64,000 nucleotides of DNA from the NCBI GenBank assembly GCA_944388955.1, contig CALXKJ010000003.1, positions 1 to 64,000 on the forward strand, in the 5' to 3' direction. The first letter of the stretch is position 1. Each line of letters opens with the position of its first letter. Origin of the DNA: an uncultured Spirochaetaceae bacterium. Lineage in GTDB: Bacteria > Spirochaetota > Spirochaetia > Sphaerochaetales > Sphaerochaetaceae. Under the pieces are notes generated by a model that searched no databases, was not told the origin of the DNA, and saw only the letters and a list, made by a program, of their open reading frames with translations. Positions 10,332 to 45,376 of this stretch are shown piece by piece. Made by a program: the position numbers and the translations under genes.

Positions 10332-11624
10332 TCAGAGAGCTTCTTTTTCGTACTGAGCCTGAATATCAGCAGCCAGCTGTTCAGGTGTGATTGTTCCAAT
10401 CAGGAGTTCCTGCAAGCCAGACTGCATAACCTGCATAAGACCAGATGAAAGCTGATGATCATATACAGGAACATATGCTCTTCCGCTCTGGAAATCATCA
10501 AAGGCACGTGCAACGAGCTGTGATTCATCAAGAGTGAATTCATCTGTCACCATGGCAGTAGGATTACCATAAGAAGCCATAACTGTAGCGAATCCTCTAT
10601 CAAAAACTTCATGAAGGAACTCACCTACTATAGCTTTTTTCTCTTCTGGAAGATCCGCATTTACAGCCATTCCCCATCCGGAACCGCCAGAAATAGCATT
10701 CGGATCACCCTTGCCTCCTTCAACAGCAGGAAGAGCTGCAAGACGAACATTCTTCAGCACTTCTTCTGGACAGCTCTGATCAATTGTCGTGACAGCCCAA
10801 GTGCCATCTATTGTCATAGCGGCCTGACCGTTCATAAACACCTGCAGCTGCTGTGCATCATCAATACTGTTCACATCGCTATTAAAAGCACCAACCTCGA
10901 CAAGCTGAGACAGAGCCTCAAGTGCTCCAACAAACTCAGGGTCGGTAAATTTTGCACCCGTACGGTTTCTAATACTCTCATACCATTCATTACCACTGAC
11001 TCTGTTTCCAAGAGTACTCATGATAACTGATTCAGCATTCCACTTATCTTTATTACCCAGAACGATTGGAGTATATCCTTTATCTTTGAGGGTCTTGCAA
11101 ACTTCTACGAACTCATCCCATGTTGTCGGGAAGGATTCTATTCCAGCTTCATCGAATATAGCCTGATTATAGAACACACATGTGTTTGTTACCTGATAAG
11201 GAATGGCATAGATATTGCCATCAAACGTGAAGTTGGAAAAAACACCTTCCTTGAAATCTGCTGCCCATTCAGGATACATCTCAAGATATTCATTGAGAGG
11301 CATAAGCTTGCCATTTTTAGCGAAATTCTCTGCCATCTGTCCTTTAAGAGCAAAGAGATCAGGGAGTTCATCTGCAGCACCAAGTGTCTGAACCTTTATC
11401 GTAAGATCTGCGTTACTGATAGTTTCCTCATCAATGACAACATCCGGATGCGCTTCCTCAAATTTCCCTAAGGAGTCACGCCATGCATAAGTAACACCTT
11501 CGCTTGGAACAAATGCATCAAGCACTGTAAGAGTAGTCTGACCGGATGACTCTCCAGCACCACCTGCAAAAACCATTCCGATTATGGAAATCATACAAAT
11601 CAGAATAAGAAATACCTTTCTCAT
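10332..11624 (-). CDS. Extracellular sugar-binding protein of the ABC transporter
   Basis: 430 residues from the ATG at 11624, chosen because AGGAGGT lies four bases upstream and the signal peptide (MRKVFLILICMISIIGMVFA) begins there; an in-frame start at 11702 would hide the signal. Cleavage before GGAGESS leaves a family-1 solute-binding protein (SBP_bac_1/CUT1): LPDLFALKG, PYQVTNTCVFYNQAIF, FMNGQAAMTIDGTWAV. No lipobox cysteine is seen, so it is periplasmic rather than a clear lipoprotein. First gene of the operon that continues into two permeases, kinase, regulator and glycosidase. Confidence 0.9.
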   Translation of the reverse strand: MRKVFLILICMISIIGMVFAGGAGESSGQTTLTVLDAFVPSEGVTYAWRDSLGKFEEAHPDVVIDEETISNADLTIKVQTLGAADELPDLFALKGQMAENFAKNGKLMPLNEYLEMYPEWAADFKEGVFSNFTFDGNIYAIPYQVTNTCVFYNQAIFDEAGIESFPTTWDEFVEVCKTLKDKGYTPIVLGNKDKWNAESVIMSTLGNRVSGNEWYESIRNRTGAKFTDPEFVGALEALSQLVEVGAFNSDVNSIDDAQQLQVFMNGQAAMTIDGTWAVTTIDQSCPEEVLKNVRLAALPAVEGGKGDPNAISGGSGWGMAVNADLPEEKKAIVGEFLHEVFDRGFATVMASYGNPTAMVTDEFTLDESQLVARAFDDFQSGRAYVPVYDHQLSSGLMQVMQSGLQELLIGTITPEQLAADIQAQYEKEAL

Positions 11625-38341: not shown

Positions 38342-39733
38342 TTACTTGCCAGCAGGAATCTCCAGATCAGCTGAAAACAGATCTCTGCCGGAAATAAGGA
38401 CATATTCAGAACTGCTAAATGAAAAGCCTTCAAGGGATACGAATCCTATCTTTCTTATATTCAAAGCCCCGATTTCTTGAATCTTTCTTGCCTCGTCATC
38501 TGCCAATGCCGCATCCATAGGCACTGAAAGATGTTTGATTTCAAATATATCATACCCATCATTGTACGATACAACACAATCGAATTCACCGTTCCTGTGC
38601 CTCTTTTTGTCGTCATACCAATATGTACCGATATCATAAACGCCTTTCAGCAATCCAGCTCTCACACAACGGGAGAAATAAGAACGGACAATATCTTCAA
38701 ACCGGTAACTCAGATACGTGGGAAGTGATGGTTGTACAAATTGCTCATATACAACGTCCACGCCGAACTGCTGGATTCTCGAGCGATTCGTATGAATATA
38801 AGCGAAATAAAACCTCAGCAGATTATCGCTGATAGCATAGAATGTCGTTTTCCTGTCGTCCGGACGGTTTATAGGATGAATGCATACAATCATTTCATTT
38901 TCGATGAGTTTCTTTAAAAGTTTTGAAAGATTGCCGGTATTGTGAGGATCAAGTTTTTCTCTGAGTTCACCATATGTTCTTTTACCATTACCGAGCTGTG
39001 TAAGAAGGGAATATACAGGTCCAAGCTTTCTGTATTCCTGCATTATCGTACGCTCAACCAGTGTTCTTACTTTTCCTTCTGGTTCAAAGAAGAGCCTCTT
39101 GATATTATCCGCAAGAGGGAGGCATGGATCTACCTGTTCAAGAGCAGCTGGCAGCCCCCCAAACACAGCAATCGTATCAACCTTCCATCTAAGATCTGTA
39201 TCCGGGAAGAAAAGAGCACTGTCAAAGTAATCAAAAGGCTCGAGATGGATAGTAAGATCGAATCGATCAAAAAGAGGATTATCGCCGTCCAGCAGCTCCT
39301 TCATCACAGTCACTTCAGATCCAAGCAATACAATTTTCACCTTATATCCTGATAGACTGTCGATAATCTTCTGCATCATTGAATCAGTCTCAATTCCACC
39401 GTATCCTTCTTTCAGGTTGCTGTATTCATCCAGAATTACAAGAATATCCTCATCAAGACTTCTCAGGAAACGGAAGAAGTCCGGAAATGAAGTGAATGTA
39501 CGGTTTGAATCATTAAAAGCGAGACAGTATTCACCTGTAAGATCATCAAGATTGACTTCATAGCTCTCCTTTGTGCAAAGGTAGCTGATAATCTTGCCAT
39601 TAAAGGATTTTGATGCTTCTTTGACAAGGCTTGTTTTCCCAACCCTTCTTCTGCCGTAAACCAACGACGCAGTGCCATCTGACGACAAAAATGTTTTCAT
39701 CCGTTCAAGTTCCGTTTTACGGGAAAGAAACAT
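38342..39733 (-). CDS. AAA ATPase with C-terminal nuclease-like domain (PF01637/DUF234 type)
   Basis: 463 residues. Walker A YGRRRVGKTS (about 26-35), Walker B DEDILVILDEYSN, then a winged-helix region (GNGKRTYGELREKLDPHNTG) and a DUF234 C-terminus whose GEFDCVVSYNDGYDIFEIKH has the D-x(n)-E-x-K pattern of PD-(D/E)XK nucleases. These 'archaeal-type' ATPases are common in gut bacteria; their role is not settled. Start at 39733 is backed by AAAGGAGG seven bases upstream. A different ATPase family (AAA_14/DUF4143) occurs at 57 kb. Confidence 0.8.
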   Translation of the reverse strand: MFLSRKTELERMKTFLSSDGTASLVYGRRRVGKTSLVKEASKSFNGKIISYLCTKESYEVNLDDLTGEYCLAFNDSNRTFTSFPDFFRFLRSLDEDILVILDEYSNLKEGYGGIETDSMMQKIIDSLSGYKVKIVLLGSEVTVMKELLDGDNPLFDRFDLTIHLEPFDYFDSALFFPDTDLRWKVDTIAVFGGLPAALEQVDPCLPLADNIKRLFFEPEGKVRTLVERTIMQEYRKLGPVYSLLTQLGNGKRTYGELREKLDPHNTGNLSKLLKKLIENEMIVCIHPINRPDDRKTTFYAISDNLLRFYFAYIHTNRSRIQQFGVDVVYEQFVQPSLPTYLSYRFEDIVRSYFSRCVRAGLLKGVYDIGTYWYDDKKRHRNGEFDCVVSYNDGYDIFEIKHLSVPMDAALADDEARKIQEIGALNIRKIGFVSLEGFSFSSSEYVLISGRDLFSADLEIPAGK

Positions 39734-39965: not shown

Positions 39966-40048
39966 AAAAAACCCCATCGCGGGCAAAAGGAGGTAAACCG
40001 CATATGGGGAACAAAAGGAGGTTAGAATGGAAGTTCTGCTTCCACTTT
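39966..40048 (-). ncRNA. Candidate small RNA with two 16S anti-Shine-Dalgarno copies
   Basis: On the minus strand: a -10 box (TATTAT at 40060-40055, or TATATT two bases up), predicted start near 40048, a 6-bp hairpin TGGAAG-CAGAA-CTTCCA, an open linker with AACCTCCTTTTG, and a final hairpin CCCCAT-x-GCGG / CCGC-x-ATGGGG followed by TTTTTTATTTT. The loop of that last hairpin carries the second copy, ACCTCCTTTTG. ACCUCCUUU is the 3' end of bacterial 16S rRNA. The -35 region is weak. Alternative reading: on the plus strand these are two strong ribosome-binding sites, each before an ATG (40004 with a 30-codon frame, 40028 with a 59-codon frame), ending at an AT-only hairpin with a T tract near 40095-40121. 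Confidence 0.45.
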
Positions 40049-40167
40049 CGGCCTATAATATATCGATTACTGGCAACAATGAAAAGAGGTTTTTGAAAAA
40101 TTTTCGAAAATTTTTTATTTTTCAGTTTTTAATCGCAATTTTATGCTGTAATTCAAATAAGGATTTC

Positions 40168-40198
40168 AAAAAGGCGGAAGATTTCTCCTCCGCCTTTT
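40168..40198 (-). terminator. pfkA terminator
   Basis: AAAAGGCGGA-N10-TCCGCCTTTTT directly after the pfkA stop; a T run follows on the minus strand. Confidence 0.8.
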
Positions 40199-40202
40199 GC
40201 TC

Positions 40203-41543
40203 TTAGTCTGAATTCTTCATTGAGAAAGGCTGTCTTGTGTTCTCAAGAACATCTCTCCAGAGAGAGCCTTCTGTGTCGACATGGCTTCTCTTTGAAACAG
40301 CTACTTTGATAGGAATATAGACATACTGGTTATTGACTCTTGATGCTATGCACTGTGTCTTTCCAGCCATTGCTGCATGTACCGCATGCGCTCCAATACG
40401 TGCACAGTAGATTGAGTCATAGCTGTTCGCCGGGGCTGAGCGTATGAGATATGACGGATCAATATACTTGATTGATGTCGATACACCCTGCTCCGCGAAA
40501 TATGCTTTCATCTTCTCCTTCAGGAACACTCCGATATCATGGAACTTAAGGTTTCCGGAAGCATCCGTCTCTCCTGATGGTGGGATGAATTCCTGACCAG
40601 CGCCTTCTGCTACGAGAATGACAGCATGTCCTCTCTCGAGAAGTCTTCTCTTTACGTTCTCCAATAGTCCGTTAGGGCCTTCGAGATCGAATGGGGATTC
40701 CGGGATAAGGCAGAAATTGACATCAGACTGTGCAAGCGATGCATTCGCTGCGATAAATCCTGATTCTCTTCCCATTACCTTCACAAGACCTATACCGTTT
40801 ATGGAGCCCGTAGCCTCGACATGAGCGCCTCTTATAGCCGGTACCGCCTGTGATACTGCTGTATCAAAGCCGAAGGAGGCATCGATGAATGAGAGGTCGT
40901 TATCAATAGTCTTCGGAACACCGACAACAGCGATCTTCAGACCTCTTCTCTTTATCTCCTCCCCGATATCCTGAGCGCCACGGAGAGTTCCATCGCCTCC
41001 GATTGTTATGAGGATGTTTATATTCATTCTCTCAAGAGAATCGACAATCTCCTCAACCTGTTTTCCGCCACCGCGAGCAGAGCCAAGAATCGTGCCACCT
41101 TTTTCCTGAATGTCATCAACAACATCCGGATCCAGTGGAATGACAGGCCATGGTGAATTCTCAAGAAGCCCAAGGTAGCCATACTGTATACCGGAGATTC
41201 TTCTTACTCCATAACGATACCAGAAGCAGCGGACAACAGATCTTATGACGTTATTCAGTCCTGGGCAGAGACCACCGCATGTGCATATTGCAGCATGGAC
41301 GTGAGCAGGATTGAAATAGATTCTCTCCCTTGGTCCCGCCAGCTCCAGCGTGTCAGACTGAACAAGCTTCGACTCGCCATTGACTTGCTCCGTCTCAATC
41401 GAATAAAGGATGCGGTCCGAATCTGATACGTAATCAGCCAGCCCATCACCACCGCGCTTTGACATTCTTATCGGACTATTAAGCTTTGCCGGTCCGAGTG
41501 ATTCAATAGTGAAGTCATACTGCTGCGATTTATTGCCCGCCAT
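40203..41543 (-). CDS. pfkA: ATP-dependent 6-phosphofructokinase (long, Borrelia/trypanosome-like type)
   Basis: 446 residues, about 120 longer than E. coli PfkA because of an N-terminal extension. ICTCGGLCPGLNNVIRSVV is the first phosphate loop; GGDGTLRGAQD and PKTIDNDLSF are the donor/acceptor loops. Gly in GGDGT points to ATP, whereas PPi enzymes have GGDD; Lys in PKTIDND is shared with the trypanosome-type ATP enzymes. Start at 41543 has GGAGGAAG upstream and overlaps the ModE-like gene by 14 bases. Terminator follows. Confidence 0.88.
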   Translation of the reverse strand: MAGNKSQQYDFTIESLGPAKLNSPIRMSKRGGDGLADYVSDSDRILYSIETEQVNGESKLVQSDTLELAGPRERIYFNPAHVHAAICTCGGLCPGLNNVIRSVVRCFWYRYGVRRISGIQYGYLGLLENSPWPVIPLDPDVVDDIQEKGGTILGSARGGGKQVEEIVDSLERMNINILITIGGDGTLRGAQDIGEEIKRRGLKIAVVGVPKTIDNDLSFIDASFGFDTAVSQAVPAIRGAHVEATGSINGIGLVKVMGRESGFIAANASLAQSDVNFCLIPESPFDLEGPNGLLENVKRRLLERGHAVILVAEGAGQEFIPPSGETDASGNLKFHDIGVFLKEKMKAYFAEQGVSTSIKYIDPSYLIRSAPANSYDSIYCARIGAHAVHAAMAGKTQCIASRVNNQYVYIPIKVAVSKRSHVDTEGSLWRDVLENTRQPFSMKNSD

Positions 41544-41901
41544 TTTCTTCCTCCATCAGTGCCTTGACGCTTGCATCGAATGAAACAAAACATTCCTCAG
41601 CTGCCGCCTTGGCTTTATCCTGAAACTCCCTATATAAGGAGATATACTTCTCTGCAAAAGGCGTCAGCGTTGCGCCCTTACGCATAGCCCCGCCTTTTTT
41701 TCTATCGATAACTGTACAGCCGAGCTCATTTTCAAGATTCTCGACCATGCCTCTGGCCTTGGTGTATGACATACCCATCATCTCAGAGGCAGCAAGAAGC
41801 GAGCCTGTCTTGCCGATATTCTCAAGAAGCCACAGAACACCAGCGCCCATGAACTTCTCACCATCGTCAGAGACAAGATACAGCTTCTCTCTCAGCTCCA
41901 T
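41530..41901 (-). CDS. ModE/LysR-type winged-helix DNA-binding protein
   Basis: 123 residues: a single winged helix-turn-helix (GVLWLLENIGKTGSLLAASEMMGMSYTKA, then VENLENELGCTVIDRKKGG) as in the N-terminal half of ModE. The C-terminal molybdate-binding (TOBE) domains of ModE are absent, so molybdate sensing cannot be assumed. It overlaps both neighbours (aminotransferase by 10, pfkA by 14 bases) and is translated with them. A molybdo-hydroxylase-like operon starts about 3.5 kb upstream. GGAGGAG precedes the ATG. Confidence 0.75.
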   Translation of the reverse strand: MELREKLYLVSDDGEKFMGAGVLWLLENIGKTGSLLAASEMMGMSYTKARGMVENLENELGCTVIDRKKGGAMRKGATLTPFAEKYISLYREFQDKAKAAAEECFVSFDASVKALMEEENGGQ

Positions 41902-43193
41902 AGCTCCTCCGCCGCCTTGTAGACGGTATCAACAACCTCGTCCAGTCCTTCGGGCTCGACTGAGCAATATGCCAGACGAAGGGTGTGTCCCATGATATTT
42001 ATAGCACCTATCTGGTACTTATCTAAGAGATAAACCCTCAAGTCCTCCGCATTCCTGCCGTTTGTGCTGAACGCCATGAAATATCCAGAATTGAAAGCGT
42101 ATGGTGTGATGATTCTCTCATCCTTATGTCTCTCCACTGCTTTCTTCACGATTCTATAGCGTTCATCCATGGCCTTGAAGATTGTCTCCTTGTCTTCCGC
42201 GTAATGCGTACCATTCTGAATCGCGTTGACAACGAGCGACTGCCCCGGTCTATCACAGTTGGAGACAGTGCATCTGATCATGCCGAGTGTTTTCTTCGTC
42301 AGCGCATCAAGATGAGCGTCTGTGAAGCCTTTGGATGCATATGTGATGAAGCCGATTCTGAAGCCCCACACCATCTCTTCCTTAGTAGCAGCATCACCTT
42401 TGACTGCGAATATGTTCTCATGAGCATCCGCGAGATATGCAAAGAGTGATTCCTTCTCTGTCTCCTCCTCGAAGAAGAGCCCGAAATAAGCATCATCGGA
42501 GAGGACAAGTATCTTCTTGCCACTGTCAGCAACAGAGATAAGCGCAGCAACCATTTCCTTCGCTTCCGTCTTTGATGGTGTATAGCCTGTAGGGTTATTA
42601 GGGAAATTGAGGATAATGCGCACATACTCTGATTCAACGCTCATGAGCGCATTCTTCATGCCTTCCACATTGAAGCCTCCATGCTCGCCATAGAATGGGA
42701 ACAGCACAGGCTTTGCTCCGATAAGATCAGAGAAGATGAGATCGTAGTTATCCCAGAAGAGATCTGGGCATACAACACTATCTCCTTCCCCGACAAACAT
42801 CTCTGCAGCGAGGCTTATCGCATGCGTAAGACCTGATGTCACAACAGGAAGTGAAGTCTTCTTGCCCTTAAGGTGAGGATTCTTCTGGATCATGCTCTCT
42901 TTCCAGAGTGTACGGAGTGTCTTATCACCGCCACCCGGAGCGTAGGAGAAAATCTGCGATGGCTTGAATATGCCATCCTTGAATGCTGTGTAGATATCCT
43001 GAAGGTAGAAAGGCTCCCCTTTCCTTGTCGCAAGGCCTACAGTAGCGTTATATCTTTTAGCCTTTTCCTTGGCTTCATCGCTCTGCGCCACGATGCCCTT
43101 CGGGAAGTACATTCTCCTGCCAAGAGGAGAGAGAAATCCGTATGCTATCGAATCTGACAGAGTCTGGTTTAGTTCTTCAGCAAGTCTATTCAT
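41892..43193 (-). CDS. Class I/II PLP aminotransferase
   Basis: 433 residues from the ATG at 43193 (AAGGGAG upstream). Fold-type I motifs: SGLTHAISLAAEMFVGEGD, LNFPNNPTGYTPS, VLSDDAYFGLFFEEE, and the PLP lysine in KGDAATKEEMVWGFRIGF. Substrate unknown; the family includes aspartate, aromatic and alanine aminotransferases. Follows ligA by 35 bases and leads into the ModE-like gene and pfkA, so an operon is likely. Confidence 0.83.
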   Translation of the reverse strand: MNRLAEELNQTLSDSIAYGFLSPLGRRMYFPKGIVAQSDEAKEKAKRYNATVGLATRKGEPFYLQDIYTAFKDGIFKPSQIFSYAPGGGDKTLRTLWKESMIQKNPHLKGKKTSLPVVTSGLTHAISLAAEMFVGEGDSVVCPDLFWDNYDLIFSDLIGAKPVLFPFYGEHGGFNVEGMKNALMSVESEYVRIILNFPNNPTGYTPSKTEAKEMVAALISVADSGKKILVLSDDAYFGLFFEEETEKESLFAYLADAHENIFAVKGDAATKEEMVWGFRIGFITYASKGFTDAHLDALTKKTLGMIRCTVSNCDRPGQSLVVNAIQNGTHYAEDKETIFKAMDERYRIVKKAVERHKDERIITPYAFNSGYFMAFSTNGRNAEDLRVYLLDKYQIGAINIMGHTLRLAYCSVEPEGLDEVVDTVYKAAEELWS

Positions 43194-43228
43194 AACTCCC
43201 TTATATCCCATTCTAAATATTTGGTCAC

Positions 43229-45340
43229 CTAGAATAATGAAAGCTGACCATTATCATCGGAAGAAACAGCCTCGTTTGCCTTGCCCAGAAGTGACATGAA
43301 TTCATCTTCATTGACGATTTTAACGCCAAGCCTTTCAGCTTCCGCCGCCTTTGAGCCACCACCTGACCCCATCAGAAGATGTGTTGTTTTGCCCGTTACC
43401 GACGAGACTGTACGCCCGCCTCTCTTCTCAATCTCCTTCAACGCTTTGGAGCGTGGATTGAAATTTTCAAAGGAGCCGGTAATGCACCATACCTGTCCGC
43501 TGAATATCTTCTCAAGATTCTCATCATCCTTCTCATCCATTGATGATGAGAGATGGATTCCTGCTTTCCTAAGCCCTTCTATGGTCTTTCTTACATGCTC
43601 CGATCTGAACGCCTCGACAATCCTTGTCCCTGTCACAAGGCCAAAACCGGGAATCGAAGAGAATGCCGTGACATTATTTTCATCAGCTGCCTTGAGTATG
43701 CTATCTATCGAATCAAAACCGTTTTTGACAAGAAGCTCCGCACTCTTCTTGCCTATCTCAGCGATGCCTAAAGCTGAAAGCACTGTACTGAATGGACGGG
43801 AAAGGCTTTCCTTGACGCCTTTCTCAATCATGGAAATGCTCTTCTCCCCGAATCCTGGAAGTCCTGCCGCCTTATGATAATCCGCAGTATAGATATCCTC
43901 GATGCTTCTAAGGATTCCCGCCTTGTATAAGTCACCGACAGTCTTCGGTCCCAATGACTCTATATCCATCTCATCAGCAGATGCGAAATACGCGATTCTC
44001 CCCTTCACCTGATCAGGACAGTCATAATCAGGGCAGTACTGCAAACCGCCGATCTGCACGATCTCACTATGGCAGCAAGGACAAAGTGACGGCATCTCGT
44101 AGGTCGTGTTGCCATCGCTGTTCTTATCGATGACGCTCTCGACAGCTGGTATCACATCACCGCGCTTCGATATTGAAACCGTATCACCGATAGCAAGTTC
44201 AAGCTCATTTATATATTCCTGGTTATGAAGAGTTGCGCGCCTTATAGTCGAGCCTCCGAGCTTTGTGGGCGTTATTTCAGCAACAGGCGTTATACGCCCC
44301 GTCCTTCCGACCTGCACCGTGATATCAAGAAGTCTGGCCTCAGCTTGAGGTGCTTCGAACTTATAGGCGATTGCCCATCGCGGGTGGTGCTCTGTATATC
44401 CGAACTCCTCCCTCACATCCAGCTCATTGATTTTGAAGACAAGACCATCTATTTCATATGGAAGGTTTTTCCTTTCCGCAGTTTTCTTCTTTATGAAGCT
44501 ATCGATGCTGTCGAATGCATAAGCTTCCCCTTCAAGCCCCGTTTCCCTGAGTTTTCTTTCAGCTTCTGCTTTCGAGGAAGCAAAGAAAGCGAAGTGAGGA
44601 TTCGTCCTGAAGCCTAGGGCTTTAAGCTTCGCGAGGATATGGATATGATCAGGAGGCGTTTCAGCCTTATTGCCCCAGAATCCTTCATAACAGAATATCG
44701 TGAGAGGGACTCTCGCAGCCTCGCTGCTTTTCTGCCTTCTGACAGTTCCCGCAGCAAGATTCCTTGGGTTCGCAGCTTTTTTCGATTCATCAGTCTCTTC
44801 CGCGTTCAGATGCTCGAAATCGGCTTTGCTAAGATAAACTTCGCCGCGCACCGCGATATCCAAAGGCTCAGGAAGCGAGAGAGGAACAGATTGCATTGTC
44901 ATGATATTAGGAGTCACATCGTTGCCTATCTCACCATTGCCGCGAGTCACTGCTCTCTGCAATATGCCTTTCTCGTAATAGAGCACCATCGATATACCAT
45001 CGATTTTCTCTTCCGCCGCGAAAGTAAGCGCACCGCCCTTTTTCTCAATCGACTTGGAGAAGAAAGAGAGCACGGCTTCATCTGAATATGCTTTATCGAG
45101 CGAAAGCACCGGTATAGTATGCCTTACCTCGGGAAAATCATTCGTGAGATCTGAGCCGACTCTTTTTATCGGAGAATCTGGATGCTGAAATTCAGGATGC
45201 TCTGTCTCCAACGCTATAAGACGGTCTGTCAGCCTATCGTATTCACTGTCGGAAATAAGGGATATTCCTTCCTTGTAGTACTTGTCCTGATATATCTTCA
45301 GGTCCTCGGTAAGCTTATCTATCTCTTCCTTGATGTTCAT
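43229..45340 (-). CDS. ligA: NAD-dependent DNA ligase
   Basis: 703 residues from the ATG at 45340. Adenylation lysine in AAEEKIDGISMVLYY, OB fold after VGRTGRITPVAEI, a four-cysteine zinc finger (CPCCHSEIVQIGGLQYCPDYDC), helix-hairpin-helix repeats (PGFGEKSISMIEKG, IPGFGLVTGTRI) and a C-terminal BRCT domain (GQVWCITGSFENFNPRSKAL). Complete. Joins nicks during replication and repair. TATCAT ends seven bases before the ATG, with TTGTTC 17 bases further up; no ribosome-binding site. Confidence 0.95.
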   Translation of the reverse strand: MNIKEEIDKLTEDLKIYQDKYYKEGISLISDSEYDRLTDRLIALETEHPEFQHPDSPIKRVGSDLTNDFPEVRHTIPVLSLDKAYSDEAVLSFFSKSIEKKGGALTFAAEEKIDGISMVLYYEKGILQRAVTRGNGEIGNDVTPNIMTMQSVPLSLPEPLDIAVRGEVYLSKADFEHLNAEETDESKKAANPRNLAAGTVRRQKSSEAARVPLTIFCYEGFWGNKAETPPDHIHILAKLKALGFRTNPHFAFFASSKAEAERKLRETGLEGEAYAFDSIDSFIKKKTAERKNLPYEIDGLVFKINELDVREEFGYTEHHPRWAIAYKFEAPQAEARLLDITVQVGRTGRITPVAEITPTKLGGSTIRRATLHNQEYINELELAIGDTVSISKRGDVIPAVESVIDKNSDGNTTYEMPSLCPCCHSEIVQIGGLQYCPDYDCPDQVKGRIAYFASADEMDIESLGPKTVGDLYKAGILRSIEDIYTADYHKAAGLPGFGEKSISMIEKGVKESLSRPFSTVLSALGIAEIGKKSAELLVKNGFDSIDSILKAADENNVTAFSSIPGFGLVTGTRIVEAFRSEHVRKTIEGLRKAGIHLSSSMDEKDDENLEKIFSGQVWCITGSFENFNPRSKALKEIEKRGGRTVSSVTGKTTHLLMGSGGGSKAAEAERLGVKIVNEDEFMSLLGKANEAVSSDDNGQLSLF

Positions 45341-45376
45341 GCAGAAGATGATACAACCTAGTAAAGGCGCGAACAA
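45341..45376 (-). promoter_or_regulatory. ligA promoter, leaderless type
   Basis: Minus-strand -35 TTGTTC (45376-45371), 17-base spacer, -10 TATCAT (45353-45348), then CTTCTGC and the ATG at 45340. Confidence 0.45.

Follow-up and report, generated by a model that had tools for sequence, protein, structure and literature searches.

The minus strand of the window (the whole 64,000-nucleotide stretch of DNA that was analyzed) carries two copies of ACCUCCUUU, the anti-Shine-Dalgarno (aSD) end of 16S rRNA, within a conserved element that has the promoter and terminator of a small RNA (sRNA) gene. The element is a new family of a known functional kind, absent from Rfam and from the papers searched. 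Judged from its sequence, it probably encodes a free-standing, Hfq-independent regulatory RNA of ~85 nt that would pair with the SD sites of a subset of mRNAs and block the 30S subunit. The host is Candidatus Ornithospirochaeta (Spirochaetota), the pfk gene in the window sharing 98% identity with its counterpart in Candidatus Ornithospirochaeta stercoravium. The parts of the predicted gene and its conserved upstream neighbor are as follows.

40203–41543, minus strand (same strand as the sRNA): pfk (PF00365), conserved upstream neighbor
40080–40085, minus strand: −35-like hexamer TTTTCA, from a promoter scan and relatives
40057–40062, minus strand: −10 hexamer TATATT, 17-nt spacer to the −35, conserved in the genus
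39966–40050, minus strand: predicted sRNA, ~85 nt, ends placed from promoter and terminator, supported by conservation
40026–40046, minus strand: 5′ hairpin, 8 bp with a 5-nt loop, from the fold; stem kept, sequence varying by species
40014–40022, minus strand: first aSD copy, ACCUCCUUU (ACCTCCTTT in DNA), in a single-stranded linker
39972–40009, minus strand: intrinsic terminator hairpin, 10 bp with an internal loop and a 15-nt apical loop
39986–39994, minus strand: second aSD copy, ACCUCCUUU (ACCTCCTTT in DNA), in the terminator loop
39966–39971, minus strand: T tract of the terminator (T6)

Every element that the original prediction had described on this strand, namely a −10 box, a hairpin, a linker motif, and a T6 terminator with the motif in its loop, is present, and the paired aSD copies are real. 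The hairpin itself stands, but the length given for it (6 bp) does not, as the fold has 8 bp between the arms AGUGGAAG (40046–40039) and CUUCCAUU (40033–40026). In the terminator, CCCCAU and GCGG (40009–39998) pair with CCGC and AUGGGG (39982–39972); an automated terminator scan missed this hairpin because it permits loops of 3–8 nt only. The TTTTCA-17-TATATT promoter matches the consensus at 9 of 12 positions, with relatives having TTTACA or TTGACA in place of TTTTCA, and the start of the sRNA is placed ~7 nt past the −10. Folding of the minus strand of the window gives both stems; the same fold pairs three upstream bases, which precede the inferred start, with part of the first aSD copy. An A/T palindrome, AAAAATTTTCGAAAATTTTT (40096–40115), lies immediately 5′ of the −35 and may be an UP element; relatives are also A/T-rich there.

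The linker context of the first aSD copy is ACCUCCUUUUG (40022–40012), and the terminator loop repeats it. The window contains four occurrences of ACCTCCTTT against 0.34 expected, and one pair of copies 10–35 nt apart, an arrangement found in none of 100 shuffles. A model search found no 16S rRNA in the window's own assembly, and the 3′ end from a genome of the same genus (L126) was used instead. That 16S rRNA ends in GGATCACCTCCTTTCTGG, so ACCUCCUUU is identical to its tail over 9 nt, which bears out the proposed match to the anti-SD end. With a conserved unpaired aSD motif and a standalone predicted transcription unit (promoter plus terminator), the element has the sequence attributes of an aSD-type antisense sRNA.

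Conservation of structure is clearest in the terminator. Among close members (MAFFT alignment), 98.8% of the cells are paired, with 13 double-change cells compared with 3.1 in shuffles. In a diverse set, 98% of cells are paired and double changes occur at 9 of the 10 pairs (61 cells compared with 12 in shuffles), these pair counts leaning toward the structure in that the alignment (A5) was fitted to the covariance model, which was used after MAFFT and RNAalifold had misaligned the stems of mixed members. Hairpin 1 varies among members in both sequence and length, and its stem is retained. In the 77 distinct members compared, nearly every first motif reads ACCTCCTTT, and most second motifs read (A/T)CCTCCTTT. 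The compensating stem changes with both loops kept, for which a search of related genomes had been suggested, are found: nine terminator pairs covary, and the two motifs are nearly fixed. The setting of the first copy is a linker in Ornithospirochaeta, a mini-hairpin (CATC-GACCTCCTTTT-GATG) in other families, and a full hairpin loop (CTTCTCGGG..CCTCCTTT..CCCGAGAAG) at loci L200–L201. Because the motif is nearly fixed while this setting changes, the motif is the unit under selection, conserved independently of its scaffold. Taken with the conserved promoter and the class-wide conservation described below, the covarying stems and fixed motifs strongly support the idea of a small RNA with two exposed mimics of the 16S tail.

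The element is single copy in the genome of the window and present in most genomes of the same genus (blastn). A covariance model built from 17 sequences located it in 51 of 198 Spirochaetia genomes, nearly always once each. A second model, built from 49 sequences, located it in 60 of 393 genomes of the phylum, one copy each, under filters so strict that the lack of a match is not proof of absence; in this search, a Borrelia-like small family (f19) and one genome of 1.1 Mb (G098) gave no match. Within the class Spirochaetia, carriers are spread over 15 families or more and include Sphaerochaeta, Pleomorphochaeta, Bullifex porci, and Ca. Aphodenecus. Accepted members score 31–89 bits compared with at most 25.3 bits for motif-enriched negative-control loci. 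Matches of 33–37 bits in three families of the same phylum but outside the class (f47, f52, and f60) were left uncounted, and the one of these examined closely (L196) is a terminator next to a tRNA. Viral contigs with ACCTCCTTTTGTTCCC were rejected as members, the second copy and the terminator being missing, and a search of plasmids for the element gave no match.

No Rfam family was matched at its gathering score. The best sub-threshold match, over the full length, was LhrC (RF00616), whose 28.1 bits (E 0.026) lie so far under the gathering score of 110 bits that we treat the match as a lead and not as membership. LhrC resembles the spirochete sRNA in size, in its hairpin-linker-terminator layout, and in the redundancy of its CU-rich SD-binding motifs, which occupy the linker as well as the terminator loop (PMC4132741). 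However, LhrC is multicopy (five in L. monocytogenes) and has UCCC motifs, whereas the spirochete sRNA is usually single copy, has the exact ACCUCCUUU, and is found in another phylum; we see no evidence of common descent. The cuckoo, alpha-r14, CcsR, and NfeR1 RNAs of Alphaproteobacteria likewise repeat an identical aSD motif in loops while their stems diverge (PMC10746234; PMC3927594). Cuckoo/alpha-r14 RNAs have CCUCCUCCC in at least three hairpins and are often linked to DUF1127 proteins (PMC10253847), whereas the spirochete sRNA has two copies of ACCUCCUUU and a link to pfk or pgi; membership was rejected on these motifs, on the Spirochaetota host, and on the neighbors, PFK and a DUF234 ATPase. 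The 6C and B11 RNAs of Actinobacteria likewise have a pair of C-rich loops, which bind G-rich ribosome-binding sites by base pairing (PMC10470900), but those loops are poly-C. The spirochete sRNA has no Rfam match to 6C, and membership in that family (defined by two stem-loops that contain about six or more consecutive C) was rejected since its loops have no long C run. Finally, RsaE, FsrA, SprD, and RNAIII of Firmicutes share a C-rich loop in which a UCCC motif blocks the SD (PMC4132741), but their motif is shorter, their structures differ, and no homology was detected.

The view that two anti-SD copies in one short RNA are unusual is thus fair, but the arrangement is not unique, with at least three aSD loops in cuckoo/alpha-r14 and three CU-rich sites in LhrC. 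From these analogies, the spirochete sRNA most likely works like LhrC, cuckoo/alpha-r14, and 6C/B11 yet is unrelated to them, and the comparison suggests that exact mimicry of the 16S tail evolved separately in Firmicutes, Alphaproteobacteria, Actinobacteria, and Spirochaetota. A literature search, with most subscription journals outside its scope, returned no paper describing this RNA. To our knowledge, few descriptions exist of spirochete small RNAs from genera other than Borrelia and Leptospira. A class-wide candidate that is present in culturable species would provide a directly testable core riboregulator in relatives where Hfq was not found, and it opens the question of how an RNA whose seed is the same as that of the ribosome could still be selective.

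We propose that the sRNA would present its two aSD copies in the linker (or small loop) and in the terminator loop, that either copy could pair with the purine-rich ribosome-binding sites of some mRNAs, and that an SD occupied in this way would keep 30S subunits from loading. The mechanism is modeled on LhrC-lapB, in which the lapB SD is blocked by an RNA whose loop, linker, and terminator loop have aSD-like motifs (PMC4132741), and on B11-eccB4, in which one loop, either of the two, is enough (PMC10470900). A search of 40 genomes for Hfq found none, the control search being positive in 5 of 14 reference genomes. The 6C RNA, with its C-rich loops, reportedly works without chaperones (title of a paper cited in PMC10470900).

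One gene of the window stands out as a candidate target.

10332–11624, minus strand: gene for an SBP_bac_1 solute-binding protein, with the SD AAAAGGAGGT (11637–11628)

This SD is a 10-nt complement of both aSD copies. Apart from the sRNA gene itself, the window's genome has AAAAGGAGGT at eight sites and ahead of a start codon at four of them; the genes there encode two binding proteins, an ABC permease, and an FGGY kinase, and at one of them the complementarity to the sRNA reaches 14 nt. Tandem solute-binding protein genes, 92% identical, lie at G000:C1:85587-87794, the first of them having the 14-nt complementarity; close orthologues of them were found in none of 23 other genomes of the genus, and the same holds for the best single target (L228). 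Among sampled sites in the genus, solute-binding proteins make up 9 of 33 genes with AAAAGGAGGT and 0 of 23 genes with [CGT]AAAGGAGGT, an SD one base different (Fisher p=0.007), and transport genes overall make up 15 of 33 and 4 of 23 (p=0.044), these p-values being indicative only because the sets were hand-sampled and the classes chosen post hoc. No such enrichment of binding proteins was seen in three other genera (two Sphaerochaeta-group genomes and a T. denticola-like genome), where full complements seldom precede start codons. As an alternative to targeting, strong SDs may simply be a trait of highly expressed binding proteins. Our best guess for this genus is a regulon of sugar-uptake genes with long SDs, those for solute-binding proteins included; such a regulon would match the position of the sRNA beside pfk (and, in related families, pgi). 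The strongest duplexes predicted in the window include those with a lipoprotein-like protein, the binding protein at 10.3–11.6 kb, and a large exported protein. A limited target set is favored because AAAGGAGG is present in only 3 of the 47 window genes and few sites in the genome are perfect 10-nt complements.

Sphaerochaetales members have sigma70-like boxes. Outside that order, TGTAAC[CTA]-N15-17-GTT is found at a near-fixed distance in 19 of 30 members compared with 0.07 expected, and in most wider-Spirochaetia members TGTAACC-N16-GTT lies ~58–74 nt upstream of the first aSD copy (L150-L162, L176-L187, L194-L195, L203, L207-L208, L211, and L215). We take this motif to resemble an ECF-sigma promoter, and TGTAACC-N16-GTT is possibly the signature of a regulon. 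More tentatively, and with considerable doubt on our part, the sRNA could be a class-wide core regulator of spirochetes lacking Hfq, one per genome and under an ECF-like promoter in most families, that would couple glycolytic/envelope state to SD-dependent translation.

The original prediction had suggested a general damper of translation, in which the sRNA would pair with SDs indiscriminately and lower the initiation of most SD-led mRNAs under stress. Although the motif is the exact 16S tail, 22 of the 47 window genes have a strong SD, and an ECF-like promoter is compatible with stress induction, we consider this broad role unlikely: long matches are rare, as the counts for AAAGGAGG and AAAAGGAGGT indicate, and if each mRNA took up one RNA, the sRNA would have to be very abundant. 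Moreover, the full SD AAAGGAGGT falls below its reversed-pattern control in all three genomes tested (G160, G208, and G205), as if strong SDs were avoided there. The most extreme of the three is G160, with 10 sites of AAAGGAGGT, two of them the sRNA's own, compared with 86 for the reversed pattern.

Era recognizes GAUCACCUCC, and a mimic of the 16S 3′ end might act as a decoy that titrates a ribosome-assembly or 3′-end factor such as Era, YbeY, or protein S1. Such a role would explain a 9-nt identity to the 16S tail that is almost without drift, and the two copies per molecule are reminiscent of known protein sponges. It is nonetheless improbable in our estimation, as the GAUCA part is not conserved (ACCUCC is preceded by UA, UU, GA, CA, or CG) and the contexts of the motif are flexible, as with base-pairing seeds.

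The element lies downstream of pfk and on the pfk strand at 59 of 80 pfk loci and on the opposite strand at none, several of the remaining loci stopping at a contig edge. In several related families, it lies in the gap between pgi (PF00342) and pfk, which run toward each other. The linkage on one strand would be expected if the element were a cis element of pfk, such as a terminator in the 3′ UTR or a processed 3′ end, devoid of trans function. However, whereas 48 of the linked elements are within 700 nt of pfk (median 320), the element is more than 1 kb from pfk at 11 loci. In the window, a terminator-like hairpin belonging to pfk (40168–40200) separates that gene from the sRNA, which has its own promoter, and aSD motifs are superfluous for a terminator. 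Treponema loci have no pfk among their neighbors, which argues that the element is an independent gene; a purely cis role is very unlikely.

As to the strand, the promoter and the T tract conserved in the genus are both on the minus side, and G-U pairs in the model favor the minus strand (10 GU compared with 1 AC); hairpin-1 energies do not discriminate between strands, and in the window alone folding slightly favors the plus strand. A plus-strand product, either a peptide with AGGAGG ribosome-binding sites (open reading frame 40027–40206) or a GGA-rich CsrA-binding RNA, would make sense of copies that read AAAAGGAGGT-ATG there and of a fold z-score of −3.3, but it is extremely improbable given the strand signals above, an open reading frame that has no Pfam match and drifts from 3 to 82 residues or is lost among relatives, and similarity that fades outside the minus-strand element. 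The peptide was accordingly rejected, and among relatives it is the minus-strand stems that persist, without the plus-strand peptide, the opposite of the pattern named at the outset as counting against the sRNA.

A DUF234/ATPase_2 protein is encoded immediately downstream of the sRNA (38342–39733), and on the other side 40203–45376 holds pfk, a small open reading frame (41530–41901), an aminotransferase-like one, and a DNA-ligase-like one. The gene order from pfk to the DNA-ligase-like gene is similar in related families (L187, L191, L194, and L195).
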